A DNA stretch of 64,000 nt from Mesoplasma grammopterae ATCC 49580. GTDB lineage: Bacteria > Bacillota_I > Bacilli_A > Mycoplasmatales > Mycoplasmataceae. The notes beneath the pieces are model-generated. The model was not told the DNA's origin. It searched no databases and worked only from the letters and a program-made list of their open reading frames with translations. The stretch is from NCBI RefSeq assembly GCF_000701525.1, contig NZ_JNJC01000004.1, positions 1 through 64,000 on the forward strand. Direction: 5' to 3'. This document shows positions 1 through 28,526 of this stretch, piece after piece (within the stretch, counting starts at the first letter, position 1; each line of letters opens with the position of its first letter). A program made the position numbers and the translations under genes.

Positions 1-229
1 CATCCTCATCTTCTAGTGATCCAAACGGATCTTTGAATGTTTTCTCATGCGATAATAACATCCACATGCGGTATTACCTTTCGTTTCCAAAAGTTATCCC
101 CCGCTAGAAGGTAGATTAGATACGTGTTACTCACCCGTTCGCCACTGAGGTGCAAGCACCTCCGTTCGACTTGCATGTATTAGGCATGCCGCCAGCGTTT
201 ATCCTGAGCCAGGATCAAACTCTCATTTT
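1..229 (-). rRNA. rrs: 16S ribosomal RNA, 5' end (partial)
   Basis: The reverse complement begins AAAATGAGAGTTTGATCCTG and continues with GGCTCAG, the universal 16S 5' sequence, then the conserved GCCTAATACATGCAAGTCGAACG and GGCGAACGGGTGAGTAA stretches. The mature 5' end is placed at 229 by analogy with mollicute 16S genes starting AAAAUGAGAG. The gene runs out of the window at position 1, so only about 230 nt are visible. The leader (230-361) contains ATCTTTGAAAACTAAATAG, a sequence type common just ahead of Firmicute and mollicute 16S genes. Confidence 0.97.
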
Positions 230-368
230 AAATTACTGTTTTGATTCTGACTATTATATTTTTTTGTATATTATTCTGTACTCAATTTGAAATTGTTACA
301 GGATTGTACAATTGTTGTTCTATTTAGTTTTCAAAGATCATTTGTTGCCTTTTAAGGGCACAATAATT

Positions 369-397
369 AATATACACTATTTTGTTTTTCAATGCAA
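369..397 (-). promoter_or_regulatory. rRNA operon promoter
   Basis: On the minus strand a -35 TTGCAT (392-397) and a -10 TATATT (369-374) are separated by exactly 17 bp, about 130 nt upstream of the mature 16S end. The sequence just after the -10, AATTATTGTGCC, resembles the start region of the two tRNA promoters nearby. Confidence 0.7.
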
Positions 398-454
398 TCT
401 TTTTTTTACATTTTTTTAGAATATTTTTTTATAGAAGTTTTAGTGATATTTGCA

Positions 455-489
455 AATAAAAAAACTAGCAATTTTTGTATACTAGTTTT
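455..489 (-). terminator. Terminator of the tRNA-Lys/tRNA-Leu unit
   Basis: The minus strand carries an 8-bp stem, AAAACTAG pairing with CTAGTTTT (482-489 with 461-468), followed by a T-rich tract. It lies just downstream of tRNA-Leu and ahead of the rRNA promoter. Confidence 0.75.
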
Positions 490-498
490 GTTTTCTTA

Positions 499-582
499 TG
501 GTGCGGGATAAGGGACTCGAACCCTTACGTCGAAGACGCTAGATCCTAAGTCTAGTGCGTCTGCCAATTCCGCCAATCCCGC
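499..582 (-). tRNA. tRNA-Leu(UAG)
   Basis: The 84-nt cloverleaf has a GCGGGAT/ATCCCGC acceptor stem, a long variable arm typical of leucine tRNAs, a GGTTCGAGTCC T-arm and an encoded CCA (499-501). The anticodon loop is CTTAGGA, giving anticodon UAG for CUN codons. It is the second gene of a Lys-Leu unit and is separated from tRNA-Lys by 4 nt. Confidence 0.96.
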
Positions 583-586
583 AGGA

Positions 587-662
<76 letters not shown>

Positions 663-682
663 ATTAACTTTGGACAATAAAA

Positions 683-711
683 ATAATATCATTTATTTTT
701 TAATTAATCAA
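683..711 (-). promoter_or_regulatory. Promoter of the tRNA-Lys/tRNA-Leu unit
   Basis: A -35 TTGATT (706-711) and a -10 TATTAT (683-688) are spaced by 17 bp. The -10 is followed immediately by TTTTATTGTCC, identical to the sequence at the same place in the promoter at 1165-1193. Confidence 0.75.
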
Positions 712-739
712 TGTAATAAATAAAATAATAATTTAATCA

Positions 740-763
740 AAAATAAAAGCACCAATGGTGCCA
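740..763 (-). terminator. Terminator of the Asn-Glu-Val-Thr tRNA unit
   Basis: The minus strand has GGCACC-ATT-GGTGCT (stem 749-753 with 757-761) followed by TTTATTTTT. It lies between tRNA-Thr and the Lys/Leu promoter and splits the cluster into two units. Confidence 0.8.
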
Positions 764-778
764 TTTAAATGTTGATAA

Positions 779-854
<76 letters not shown>

Positions 855-862
855 ATAAAAAA

Positions 863-938
863 TGGTGGAGTGCAACGGGCTCGAACCGCTGACCGCCTGC
901 TTGTAAGGCAGGAGCTCTCCCAACTGAGCTAGCACTCC
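863..938 (-). tRNA. tRNA-Val(UAC)
   Basis: The 76-nt cloverleaf has a GGAGTGC/GCACTCC acceptor stem, anticodon loop CTTACAA (UAC) and an encoded CCA at 863-865. It lies 8 nt upstream of tRNA-Thr in the same unit. Confidence 0.96.
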
Positions 939-947
939 AATAATAAA

Positions 948-1023
948 TGGTAGCCTGTACGGGGTTCGAACCCGTGTGTCCACGGATGAAAACCGTGTGT
1001 GTTAACCGCTTCACCAACAGGCC
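948..1023 (-). tRNA. tRNA-Glu(UUC)
   Basis: The 76-nt cloverleaf begins GGCCTGT and ends ACAGGCT-A-CCA, with a G.U first pair. The anticodon loop TTTTCAT gives UUC. In mollicutes this tRNA decodes GAA/GAG; Gln-tRNA is made by GatCAB on tRNA-Gln, matching the gatCAB genes in this window. Confidence 0.96.
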
Positions 1024-1031
1024 AAATGTAA

Positions 1032-1107
1032 TGGCGGCTTTTACAGGACTTGAACCTGTGACAAACCGGTTAACAGCCGGTTGCTCTACCAACTGAGCTA
1101 AAAAGCC
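1032..1107 (-). tRNA. tRNA-Asn(GUU)
   Basis: The 76-nt cloverleaf has a GGCTTTT/AAAAGCC acceptor stem, anticodon loop CTGTTAA (GUU), discriminator G and an encoded CCA at 1032-1034. It is the first gene of the four-tRNA unit. Confidence 0.96.
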
Positions 1108-21291: not shown

Positions 21292-24200
21292 TTAGAGATC
21301 TGCGTTTTGTAAAATTTGCACAGAGTTAGTTTTTGTTATTCGTTTGTAACCTGCGAAAATTGCTATTCCATAAATACCAACAATTCCTAGGAAAACCACA
21401 ATTGGTAATCATATAGGGAATGCTATTGGTAAAGCAACTCCGCTTAATAACATAATGTTTACAGCTTTTGCAAAAATAAATCATCCTGCTGCAAATCCCA
21501 CAGCAAACATTGTTGATATAACAATTAGATACATTCCCATTACTGTTTTAACAACATAAGCATCATGATACCCTAAGACTCTCATTGTTGATATAAACCT
21601 TATGTTGTCAGTAATAATAATTGATGTTGTTAGTAAAATAATTACAAATGTTAAAGATAAGATTAAGACAATCGCTATTGCAATTAATAATAAAATCAAC
21701 TGTGATATTTCTTCTAACATATCTTTTGATAAATCAATAGGTAATATTCATTCTACAGTTCCAATACCACTACCATCAAATGCTGCGTGAGTAGCACTGA
21801 ATTTAGCTTCCATTCCATTTAATGCTGTTGGAGAATAATCTCCAAATGCTGTTGAAACACTCATAACTGTATTGTAATCAGCAACATCAGTTTTGTTAGA
21901 ATACTTGTAATTGAAAACTGGATATTGATTTTCAAATATTTTAAGAATCAATTCGCCTAACTCTTTTTCATCATTATTTTGTGGATGCTCAATAAATTTG
22001 TTTTTAAATAAATCTAAATCATCTAGACCATTCTTTGTTAAATCTAAACCTTTAATTTTATTGTAAATTTTTAACTCTTCTTGATCTTTATCTTCAATAA
22101 TTATTTTATTGTTAAATTGATTAAGTGTTGAATATCCAAACTGTGTATTTCATTGTTTTGTAAAGAAATTTTTTCACAAGTAGTTTTCAACTTCATCATA
22201 TTTAAGAATAGATTTTGCATCATCATTTTTTATTCATGCTTGAGCTGATCCGTATCCTTCATGAATTCCAACAATTTTAAATTTTGTATTTGTTATTTTA
22301 TTACCAATGATTGTGTCACCGTTTAATACAGAATTGTAATATTCAGTTGGTTTAGAAATACTTGTCATAAAGTTAATTGCATTTTTATCATCTAAATCAG
22401 GTCTTGTTACTAATATATTTGAACCTAAACTATTTGTTCTTGAATTTTGTTTAAATCCACCAGTTCCATTTCATAAAGTGCTAGTATCTCAATCATTTAA
22501 TTTGTAAGGAACTATTTCACCTTTTGAAGCATCTTGTAATTCATTTTGAATAACATTTAAATCTACTTCTTGACCTTCTTTAAGATTTAAAGTTTTTGCT
22601 AGTGTTTCATTAATAACGATTCCATTTGTTTCTTTAGAATTAAATAATTTTTCCATTAAATCATTATTTCTAGAATCTCTTAAATCTAAAAATCTATCAT
22701 CATTATCGATTCCATAAATTTTAAAGTTTTTACCATCTTTTTCAGCTTGAATTTTTGTTCCTAAAGCTTCTTGACTTGGATCGTATGAAACTAAATTAAA
22801 TGCCATTGAGTAATTTTTATCATCTGATTTAAATGCATTAATCAATGTTTGTTTCACAGAATAAGGAGGTCTTGAGAAAGCTGACTGAATGATTGCTTGA
22901 TCAACACGATTATTAAATAAGAATGTAAATCATTCTCACATATCTGTAATAGCTTTTGTTGCAGTTTCTTTGTCATTTTCTTCAGCCATTTTATCAAAGT
23001 TTAAACCTAAGTAATAATCATTAGTTGATTCTTCAGTATTGTCTTCTGATGCAATTCTAAATGAACCTATTCCTGTGTAATTCCCATTAGTTAATTTAAA
23101 TTTATTATTTTGATTTGTTTGATTTTCATATTCAATTTTACCTGTTTCAGCTTTTAATAATGTTTTTAACATATTCTCATTATTTAATAGGTACATATTT
23201 GCTAAGTTACCATTTGATGAATTAAATAAATTAATTTTCTCATCTTCAGTCGCATTGATTCAATCTTTATCACTCATAATTTCTGTTCCATGATCACTTC
23301 TAAAATCATTACTTATAGATAAACCAATTGATTCAGAATATTTAGCATAGAAAGTTTGCATTGCAGCTCCTGCTTCATACATTGTTTTTGCTGAATTTAT
23401 TTCACTAAATAAATTTTGGTAATCAAATCATTGTTTTAAAATGATAGGGGAAATCATTTTTCCTAATACATCTGAATTACTTGCAGCAGGTACACCATAT
23501 TTAGATAATTGTCTGAAATAGTTACTATCAAATATTGAACCTTCTAAATTTAAAAGCTTCATATTTGCTAATGATAATTCGATAAGGTTTGGAATTGCAT
23601 ATTCATCATCACTTGATGCAGTAAATAAGTTTTGAATAAAAATTGAATAGTATTTTTCACTTATTTCATTATTAAAGTAATCAGTCATGATTTGATCATA
23701 ATCAAAGTCACCATTGTCTCTTAAAGCTAAGCTTGTTCATCCACCAGCTGTTTTTGAGTAAACCATTTCATCTTGTTTAGTTGAAGGGTTAAATGTTTTA
23801 GCAAAAGTTAAGGGGTTATTATAACTTGGCTGAGCATATTCAACTATTTGTTTATATTTAACACCAGTATATGTTGCTTTTTCATTTCTTTTTAAGATAT
23901 CTGGAGCAGCAAATGAAACTGTAAATAACATTGATGAAAGTAATACTACAAAACCAATTGCCATCATTTTTCCAAAAGCATCTACTAATAAAGCTTTTCT
24001 TAATTTTGAACCAAATGATTTTCTAAAATGAATACTTCTTAATTTAGCTTTAAATGCACTAGCTTTTTGATTAAAGGTTGCAGTAATTAAACTTAATGAT
24101 GATTTACGCATTAACAGTGTAGCTATGACAAATGATATTGCTGATAAAATAAATCACATAACTCCAATCATTAACACTAATGTAATTCAATCAAAATCAA

Positions 24201-25581
24201 ATTTTGAATAATTAAGTGAAAAATAACTGGCAAATTCATTAGTTAGAGTATTTGAAACGCTTATTGAAACAATATATCCCAATAATCCACCAATTGTTGA
24301 TGCAATTACAGGCAACATAACAAAATTATAAACAAGTATACGTTTTCTATATCCTAATGCTTTTAATGTACCTAATTGTTTTGAGGCTTTTTCAATTTGT
24401 TTTTTTGTAACAAGTGATATTGTATATAAACATACAAATAAAATTAAAATAAATATTACAAAGGCTGCTATATTGTAAGTTTGAATAGTTTTTTGAATTA
24501 AAAGAATTCTTTTACTAAATCTGTAACTTGAGTCTTCTTTTCCATAAACTATTTTATTATTTGAATTTCTTCTAATTAATTCTTTTAAGTCACTTTCAAA
24601 TTGTTCTAAACCTGTGCTTTTAGCTTTTTTAGCATCTTTAAATTTAATTGAATAAAATGATTCAATTTCGACATTTGAAGAAACTGTTAAATTACCATTT
24701 TGGTTTACGTTATATTCGTATAAATTTGATTCTTGATTGTATTTTAATCCGAACGCTGTTGGATTAACATAAATCATTACTTCTTTGCTACGGCTTGGCA
24801 ATGTCGTTGAAGCATTAAAGATTGGCGACATAAAATCAGCTGAGCTACCAAATCCTACAACTTGAAATCACTGATAGTTTGAATAGTAAGTGTTATATTT
24901 ACCACCAACAGCATCAATTTCAGTTACTGTAGATTCAATTTCTTTTACATCATTAGCTACTTGTTTATTGTCTGAATCTCTAACTAATAAAGAATTTCCT
25001 AAGTTATCAGCTTGTATTCTAATAACATCTCCTAATTCAATACCATTATTTTTTGCATAGTTTGGATCAATTACAACTTGGTGATGAGTTTGTATATCTT
25101 GACCTTCAAAAATAACTAATTTGTCTACTTCTTGGTTATTAAAATTATTTTCTTGAGAAGTTTTAGTAATTGCTTTAATTGTTAAGTCATTACGATTTTG
25201 TTTTACTTGAGAAAATTCTCTTGCTTCTGTTCTAGATCACTCAAACTGTAAGTCACTTGATTCTTCAAAATATTTCTCTTGTAATTTGTATATTCAATAT
25301 TGTTGAGCTGCAACAAGGTTTTTTGGTGCTTCTTCAGTTTCTTCACTTTCCCCAGTTGCTACTTTATCATATGGATTTAAATCAATAACAGCATCATGAA
25401 CTCTTGAGTTTTCATTCATTTCTTTATATTTTTCAATAACACGAACGTTCATTGAAACAACTAATGTTAAAACTAAAGACAGTAAAAAAGCTAAAACAGT
25501 AACACCTATTAATTGTGTTTTACTTTTAGTCGCATTTTTAAATGAGTTTTTTAACATCAAATAAATTTTTTTAAAATGCAT
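21292..25581 (-). CDS. Giant FtsX-domain ABC-type permease (1429 aa)
   Basis: This is the second duplicated FtsX-type membrane protein, shorter than the one at 10672. All pieces are in one frame. Order: a first helix (about 24-46, LIGVTVLAFLLSLVLTLVV); an ectodomain; an FtsX bundle with QLGTLKALGYRKRIL near 24330; a hinge with basic residues; a second entry helix (MMAIGFVVLLSSMLFTVSF); an ectodomain of about 600 residues; and a terminal FtsX bundle with STMRVLGYHDAYVV near 21570. The LGY motif after the first helix of each bundle is typical of the LolC/MacB/FtsX superfamily. SD GGGAAGG lies ahead of the ATG. No ATPase is adjacent. Its partner is the downstream lipoprotein-like gene. Confidence 0.85.
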
Positions 25582-25637: not shown

Positions 25638-25789
25638 AAAAAAAAAGACACAATTGTGTCTTTTTTAAAGGGTGCAGTTGTGATGAACTCATAAATAAAT
25701 CGTTTTCCTTCTTTGCCTAAGCTTATTCAAAAACATACGATTATTTTATCAGTGCATTACTTGTGTGATATTGTTTTAACAACACCCTT
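25638..25789 (-). ncRNA. Candidate free-standing structured ncRNA of about 152 nt
   Basis: Read on the minus strand, this intergenic stretch starts with AAGGGTG and closes with CACCCTT about 105 nt later, giving a perfect 7-bp terminal stem. Inside lies a long hairpin, ATAAAATAATCGT against ACGATTTATTTAT (11 pairs with a 2-nt internal mismatch), separated from the closing stem by an asymmetric bubble. A perfect factor-independent terminator (GACACAATTGTGTC plus T9) follows. An extended -10 TGTATTAT lies 6 nt before the start, inside the 3' end of truA. The rod-with-bubble plan recalls 6S RNA. It shows no match that I can see to tmRNA, RNase P RNA or SRP RNA, so its identity is open. Confidence 0.65.
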
Positions 25790-25795
25790 AATATA

Positions 25796-25803
25796 ATAAT
25801 ACA
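25796..25803 (-). promoter_or_regulatory. Extended -10 promoter of the ncRNA
   Basis: TGTATTAT on the minus strand places a start near 25789. The element sits just past the truA stop codon (25809); no good -35 is visible. Confidence 0.55.
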
Positions 25804-25808
25804 CTATT

Positions 25809-26564
25809 TTATGATTTAAAAACTATTTTATTTAATTTAAGGCCCTTTGCAGGAGCATTGAAAGGCGGTTTGTTACCCTTTCCTTGTAGTTTTTCTTTTA
25901 TTTCATCAGCACTTATTTTTTTATTTAAATAACAATTAAGAGCTGACTGTACAATCATTCTTATTTGATATCTAATGAATCCTTTACCTTTAAAAGTTAT
26001 AACAACTTTATCAAGTACCCTTTTTACATTAATGGATTCAATTTCTCTAATTGTTGCAATTTTGTTACTATCTAACTCTTTATGATTTAATCCAGAAAAT
26101 AATTTAAATTCATGTTCACCTATAAATAAATTAAATATGTTTTGTAGCTTATCAATATCTATTTCTCCAAAATCTCAATTAAGTTCAAACCTATTTGATA
26201 GTATATTATATTCCTTATCATTTATAGTATAAGAATATTCTTTATGTAAAACATCTCTTATATTGAAGTCTTGTTCAACCTCTGTTATTGAACGAACTTT
26301 AATAGTTTCAGGCAAAGCCTTGTTTATGGCTTTTTTGAATAAATCAAGTTTTGGATTAAAAGCTAAGTCTAATAAAACTTTTTGATCAATTGCATGCACT
26401 CCCGTGTCAGTTTTACTAGCACCTATTGTTTTAAAAGATGCATTTTTAGTTACTCTATTAATAGCTTTATTAAGTTCTCCTTGAATTGTAGAAGTTTTTG
26501 GTTGTTCTATTCATCCATGAAAATCTGAACCATCATATTCTAAAGTTAATAAAAATTTAAACAT
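25809..26564 (-). CDS. truA: tRNA pseudouridine(38-40) synthase TruA
   Basis: TruA isomerises uridines 38-40 in the anticodon arm of many tRNAs. The 251-aa protein starts MFKFLLTLEYDGSDFHGW and has GASKTDTGVHA with the catalytic Asp at about residue 53, followed by the family's FSGLNHKELD and RYQIRMIV blocks. The length is typical. It ends the ecfA1-ecfA2-ecfT-truA operon (14 nt after ecfT), a conserved Firmicute/mollicute arrangement downstream of rplQ. Confidence 0.95.
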
Positions 26565-27578: not shown

Positions 27579-28526
27579 TTATTTCCCCTTTCTTACTTCT
27601 TTAAATGTTTTTGCAAATTCATCAATTGTTCTAATATTTTTGTTTAATAAATCTATTCCTTGATCTTTTAATTTATACATAAGTTTGTATAATTTTGGTG
27701 GTTCAATTTGTATTTTTGATAATAATTCTTGGTTAGAGAATATTTCAAATGGTGAACCTTTTGAAATAACTTTTCCTTCATGCATAACTATTACTTCGTC
27801 AGCAACTTTTAAAACTTGATCCATATTATGAGTAACCATAATAATTCTTTTTCCTTGATTTTTATTTAATCTTAAAAATAAGTTCATGAAGTCTTCTTCA
27901 CCTTTTGGGTCTAATCCACCTGTTGGTTCATCAAGAACTAATGTTTTACCATTCATTGCAATAATTCCAGCAATAGCAGTTCTTCTTTTTTGTCCCCCTG
28001 ATAATTCAAAAGGTGATCTTTTTGCATATTCTCTTGGTAAAGAAACTAAATCTAATAGTTCAGGTATTTTTTTATAAACTTCTTCTTTGTCAGCTCCTAA
28101 ATGAATAGGACCAAAAGCAATATCTTTTTCAATTGTATCTTGGAATAATTGGTATTCTGGAAATTGAAATACAAGTCCAACTTCTCTTCTTAAATCTTTA
28201 ACTTCCTTAATTTTTTTAAGCCCTGCTGGGATTTTATAATCTCCAACAATTGTTTGACCTGTTTCAGAAATTAATAATCCATTAGTTAATTGAATCATTG
28301 TTGATTTCCCAGAACCAGTTGTACCAATAACACAAGTTATCTTTTTATCAGAGATTGATAAATCTGCGTTATCAAGTGCTCTAAATTCAAAAGGAGTCTT
28401 TTTTGAGTATGTATAGCTTACATTATCTAAAACAATATCACCAGTAAATGAAAATGATTTAATAGATTTTTTTTCTTCATTTCATTTTTTTAGATTTTGT
28501 TTGATTTCTTTTTTATTTATTTGCAT
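27579..28526 (-). CDS. ecfA2: Energy-coupling factor ATPase EcfA2
   Basis: EcfA2 is one of two ATPases powering ECF vitamin or metal uptake. The 315-aa protein has Walker A GTTGSGKS (about 68-75), the Q-loop [12 protein letters not shown], signature LSGGQKRR, Walker [12 protein letters not shown] and H-loop MVTHN. The start at 28526 overlaps the ecfA1 stop by 10 nt and adds a roughly 28-residue charged N-terminal extension relative to common EcfA2 proteins. A later internal ATG would cut through the Walker motif and is excluded. Confidence 0.95.

Follow-up and report, generated by a model that had tools for sequence, protein, structure and literature searches.

The spacer that separates truA (25809-26564, minus strand) from an FtsX-like permease ORF (21292-25581, minus strand) raises the question of whether it holds a gene of its own and, if it does, what the product of that gene might do. 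We read this spacer on both strands within the window, by which we mean the whole 64,000-nt stretch of DNA that was analysed. The initial annotation placed a free-standing structured RNA gene here, between truA and a permease operon. The permease is present, but what was called an operon amounts to a single large ORF for an FtsX-like permease (25581-21292). Gene order, the -10 element and the T run together assign the RNA to the minus strand, which it shares with truA and the permease gene. The locus is very likely an independent RNA gene, as had been proposed: its stems are kept with compensatory changes, and promoter-like and terminator sequences are conserved around the RNA. Elsewhere, the edge of the window (1-1107) carries six tRNA genes and the beginning of a 16S rRNA gene, all on the minus strand, and TGA encodes tryptophan in this genome.

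The predicted transcription unit is laid out as follows.

25796-25803, minus strand: -10 element TG-TATTAT, read from the sequence, just past the truA stop codon
25641-25789, minus strand: whole predicted transcript of about 150 nt, supported by the fold and by aligned homologues
25641-25666, minus strand: intrinsic terminator hairpin AAAAAAGACACAATTGTGTCTTTTTT, followed by T9, with the T run reaching 25638

Transcription would probably start at A25789, 7 nt past the -10 element, and end at the terminator; the corresponding start in G005 would lie at about 166288 on the plus strand. What had been described as an extended -10 is recognisable as TATTAT (25801-25796) immediately preceded by TG, but the arrangement is one base short of the canonical TGN. 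Promoters of Mesoplasma florum carry TAWAAT with a degenerate TGN extension (PMC7745072), and transcription start sites just before terminators were noted by the authors of that study as a possible source of small RNAs (PMC7745072). Of the 40 homologues, 21 have a TGTATTAT-like box with at most one mismatch close to their predicted closing stem, compared with 4.1 expected from shuffles, a count that is approximate because constrained folding misplaced the 5′ limit of the closing stem in some rows. At the other end of the unit, the terminator was correctly described as ending in nine T residues (hairpin 25666-25641, then T9); a terminator scan found 1 where 0.1 was expected, and every one of the 40 homologues has a run of at least five T residues 24-55 nt past its core.

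On the minus strand, the window copy folds with an energy of -39.5 kcal/mol versus -23.7 ± 3.5 kcal/mol for 200 dinucleotide shuffles, none of which was as good (z -4.5). The plus strand reaches z -4.0 because the hairpins are near-symmetric, and the same near-symmetry explains why a covariance model, R1, also matches the antisense strand; an alignment that contained antisense rows was left out of the analysis. From the predicted 5′ end to the end of the closing stem, the RNA is divided into the following parts.

25783-25789, minus strand: closing stem P1, 5′ arm AAGGGUG, pairing with 25668-25674
25761-25777, minus strand: one-sided 5′ single strand, a conserved block in alignments A4 and A8
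25777-25766, minus strand: conserved 5′ motif AAAACAAUAUCA, a conserved block in A4 and A8
25745-25760, minus strand: helix P2, 5′ strand (A8 columns 29-44)
25729-25742, minus strand: helix P3, 5′ side, with AAUCGU at 25742-25737, an AUG bulge and UUUUU at 25733-25729
25709-25728, minus strand: conserved apical loop, made up of GAAUAA, a variable hairpin and AGAA
25698-25708, minus strand: helix P3, 3′ side, with GGAAA at 25708-25704 and ACGAUU at 25703-25698
25680-25695, minus strand: helix P2, 3′ strand (A8 columns 110-125)
25668-25674, minus strand: closing stem P1, 3′ arm CACCCUU, from the fold and from own-partner pairing

The perfect 7-bp closing stem reported earlier forms between AAGGGUG (25789-25783) and CACCCUU (25674-25668). 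Its length ranges from 5 to 14 pairs across homologues and its sequence varies, with 21 distinct 5′ ends among 23 hand-delimited homologues; in 40 genomes, the two arms pair at -14.1 kcal/mol with their own partners versus -7.9 kcal/mol when partners are swapped between genomes. The long internal hairpin stood up as well, but the asymmetric bubble attributed to it is open on one side, with about 17 nt on the 5′ strand versus 0-5 nt on the 3′ strand of the window copy, where the 3′ length depends on how far the closing stem is extended. The junctions of 23 homologues follow the same pattern (J5, on the 5′ strand, 10-37 nt versus J3, on the 3′ strand, 0-5 nt). In homologues, the 5′ motif reads ACAAUAUCA or ACAAUGUCA, with AAUAACGUCA or UACACC in subgroups. 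P3 finishes at its inner end in two U-G pairs, and the apical loop is purine-rich, reading GGAUAA..AUAA or GGAUGA..GAGAA in relatives, with an internal hairpin of variable length. Homologues span 106-152 nt between closing-stem ends, and the window copy measures about 150 nt with its terminator.

How widely the gene is distributed bears directly on whether these features are maintained. The whole spacer is found in all 7 genomes of the genus, always beside truA, the six others being 83-97% identical to the window, and the 5′ motif and apical loop are nearly invariant in the genus alignment. Beyond the genus, the DNA search of 60 relatives returned a single weak real match (G007, 74% over about 70 nt), and the same outline appears in very different sequence downstream of truA in other genera. 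We built a covariance model, R2, from the core alignment A8, which holds 23 RNAs and the helices P2 (16 pairs) and P3 (7 pairs) and leaves out the closing stem and terminator. With E-values from a short calibration, 40 of the 60 family genomes each contain exactly one R2 match (E ≤ 0.011), spanning eight genera (g1, g2, g3, g4, g6, g8, g9 and g11), and the remaining 260 genomes of the order contain none. Among the loci outside the genus, eleven had not entered R2 (G011, G016, G019, G033, G035, G068, G069, G071, G073, G075 and G079). Ten of these were folded, and in them the closing stem and terminator, both absent from the model, flank the core, with a -10-like box upstream in most; G016 was covered by the closing-stem and T-run analyses. 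We therefore regard the small folded RNA gene, present in one copy per genome in Mesoplasma, Spiroplasma and their relatives, as real.

Weaker R2 matches were taken as chance. These include a 41st match in G029 (E 0.29), which lacks the architecture when folded, and, together with it, those in G017, G010 and G064 (E 0.29 to 3.6), all genomes without a copy. Laxer filters applied to 19 genomes without a copy yielded chance-level matches only. No copy was detectable in the family genera g5, g7, g10 and g12, including 14 of 14 g7 genomes, although truA is present. The RNA gene is thus absent or unrecognisable in four family genera, by loss or by extreme divergence, and its function is therefore not universal. 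Three of the g12 genomes have, close behind truA, an ORF whose sequence is ribosomal-protein-like.

Compensatory change in the stems of relatives, suggested earlier as a check on the RNA gene, was found across eight genera. In A8, both partners vary at 18 of the 23 pairs, including 13 of the 16 pairs of P2; within P3b (A8 columns 54-60), 90% of cells are paired and both partners vary at 5 of the 7 pairs. Paired cells amount to 82.9% in A8 versus 64.0% in shuffled and 46-56% in slid alignments, and the covariation score is 0.463 versus 0.175 shuffled and 0.11-0.20 slid, values to be read with the closing stem outside the model and with controls that remove relatedness incompletely, the slid ones keeping it. 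Fitting 40 sequences to the model gave a score of 0.448 versus 0.167, which we take as support only, given that this alignment leans towards the structure. Between species, sequence is kept in the loops and varied in the stems, a pattern that suggests a bound partner.

Since the RNA lies between two same-strand genes and has a terminator at its end, it could be a cis element, either a leader or attenuator of the permease or simply the structured tail, terminator included, in which the truA operon ends. The RNA comes directly after truA in most genomes, and truA has no terminator of its own ahead of the RNA, so that part of the RNA could be read-through from the truA operon. However, the distance between truA and the RNA is roughly 9 kb in G075, 1.5 kb in G035 and 0.7 kb in G019, and the 9-kb separation indicates that the gene is separable from truA together with its terminator. 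The sequence past the terminator also differs among genomes, with a permease-like ORF in some and other ORFs in others, so the RNA is not the leader of one gene. Moreover, the permease retains upstream sequence that by eye could be its own promoter, many homologues have a promoter-like box ahead of the RNA, and no alternative antiterminator fold appeared among the folds made. We consider a cis-acting role very unlikely. Action in trans is likely instead, judging from the variable downstream genes, the terminator that closes the unit and the ability of the gene to move. The interval between truA and the RNA in G019 (locus L061, 2250-2560) contains two or three short similar hairpin units (GGTTTCGAAAGAAA..ACAATG and GAGTTTCGAAAGAAACACAATTACTT), some with TATAAT before and a terminator after, which look like small repeated RNA elements.

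A coding function for the transcript was also considered. An SD-like AGAAGGA is followed 13 nt on by an AUG, and Mesoplasma and the genomes nearest to it keep both AGAAGGA and AUGA, as a short peptide would require. The AUG, however, is not retained in g11 genomes, which read AUAA or AUAU there, the predicted peptides are unlike one another in size and in sequence, and four members lack any ORF that starts with ATG. The small ORF is not conserved, and we rejected this reading as extremely improbable.

Comparison with known RNA families yielded no assignment. Rfam 15, searched at the locus with gathering and relaxed thresholds, gave chance-level matches only, in agreement with the initial annotation, which could match the RNA to none of 6S, tmRNA, RNase P or SRP RNA; covariance models of these were searched at the locus, and that of RNase P RNA likewise found no match there. 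The RNA resembles SRP RNA (RF00169) in being a small structured RNA with one copy per genome, but SRP RNA proper is encoded elsewhere in the window genome (G000 C1, 281341-281436, 51 bits), with no match at the locus. It resembles tmRNA (RF00023) as a small stable RNA, but tmRNA proper is likewise elsewhere (G000 C2, 2454-2861, tag peptide ANKNEENTNEVPTFMLNAGQANYAFA), the RNA described here has no tRNA-like ends, and no tmRNA match was found at the locus. The model of 6S RNA (RF00013) matched neither the locus nor any other part of the window genome (E ≤ 10), and it found no 6S in 317 genomes of the order, in a search whose controls were positive. The lack of a 6S annotation is a general gap for the order.

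The bubble between two stems had earlier called 6S RNA to mind. That hint came down to resemblance, as both an RF00013 match and a two-sided bubble were looked for and neither was found. The shared outline consists of a closing stem, an open region, a long interrupted hairpin and the RNA's own promoter and terminator. An order in which 6S is not recognisable leaves the niche open and makes an analogue conceivable: a functional counterpart of 6S, or a very divergent 6S, that would bind RNA polymerase and mimic an open promoter with the 5′ strand as template. 6S RNA itself binds the housekeeping polymerase and serves as a template for pRNA. Sequences like an extended -10, TGATATTGT or TGACATTGT, occur in the complement of the 5′ strand; the best matches sum to 114 versus 106.9 ± 3.5 for shuffled sequences, with 12 of 500 shuffles as high and kinship uncorrected. 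This signal is weak, however, and several members have none. In addition, the central bubble of 6S is open on both strands, whereas here the 3′ strand contributes 0-5 nt and the 5′ strand 10-37 nt (23 homologues), and 6S measures about 180-200 nt, whereas the present RNA has about 120-150 nt (106-152 nt between predicted closing-stem ends). We hold a 6S-like role to be unlikely.

The conserved 5′ single strand might alternatively act as a seed for pairing with target mRNAs or rRNA. Such an antisense regulator is suggested by the conserved block of 9-12 nt in the unpaired 5′ segment and by a perfect 14-nt complement at 28428-28441 of the window (minus strand), inside a gene for an ecfA-type ATPase in the same operon. 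The complement is also present in G001 and has one mismatch in G003 and G004. It is missing in G002 and G006, however, and it encodes G-D-I-V-L within the reading frame, some 90 nt from the start codon, so coding conservation may explain the match. The other conserved complementary sites looked at in the genus likewise lie within coding sequence, and complementarity to 16S and 23S rRNA in five genomes is no better than in shuffles. Conservation, furthermore, covers the apical loop and not the 5′ strand alone. We consider an antisense function improbable and prefer a protein-binding scaffold, a preference drawn from the conservation pattern only.

Our working model, then, is an independent, trans-acting, small stable RNA that most likely serves as a ribonucleoprotein scaffold, which we think probable. 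Transcription from the RNA's own -10 just after truA would begin at the closing stem and stop at the terminator. The RNA would then fold into the closing stem, a one-sided 5′ strand bearing the short motif that homologues share, and an interrupted long hairpin with the purine-rich loop (GGAUAA..AUAAGG) at its tip. The conserved loop and the 5′ strand may thereby be held in a fixed geometry for a protein partner, whereas the stems would need only to pair. We infer transcription, action in trans and the protein partner alike from sequence.

This RNA may have been encountered before. MCS4, an RNA of the close relative Mycoplasma capricolum that Ushida and Muto are said to have described in the 1990s, is reportedly abundant, stable, encoded by a single gene and about 125 nt long, and it was reported to resemble eukaryotic U6 snRNA. 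That reported length of about 125 nt may be compared with the 106-152 nt between the predicted closing-stem ends of the present family, and by eye the loops GGAUGA..GUGA and ACGAGAAGA are U6-like. Our literature search found no paper on the truA-adjacent RNA, on MCS4 or on 6S in the order, and the comparison with MCS4 covers length and loop sequences; on that footing, we give an even chance to the truA-adjacent RNA belonging to the MCS4 family. Even if it does, the present description adds where the gene lies, how the RNA folds and covaries and which species have it, and it would give an old orphan RNA a defined gene, structure and range of species.

Mollicutes are natural near-minimal cells, and Mesoplasma florum serves as a model for genome design. 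A conserved RNA gene that the standard RNA library lacks might be removed unintentionally when genomes are reduced. With one gene, one copy and defined ends, in a model organism that has no pathogenic potential and for which 5′-RACE and RNA-seq data are public (GEO GSE152985), the family offers a clear test case. We tentatively suggest, as a possibility that we do not favour strongly, that it is a new structural RNA family of the Mesoplasma-Spiroplasma branch, which would function as a ribonucleoprotein in near-minimal genomes and, if its partner were RNA polymerase, would represent an independently shaped 6S-like regulator. Binding to RNA polymerase would also answer how the order copes without a recognisable 6S RNA.
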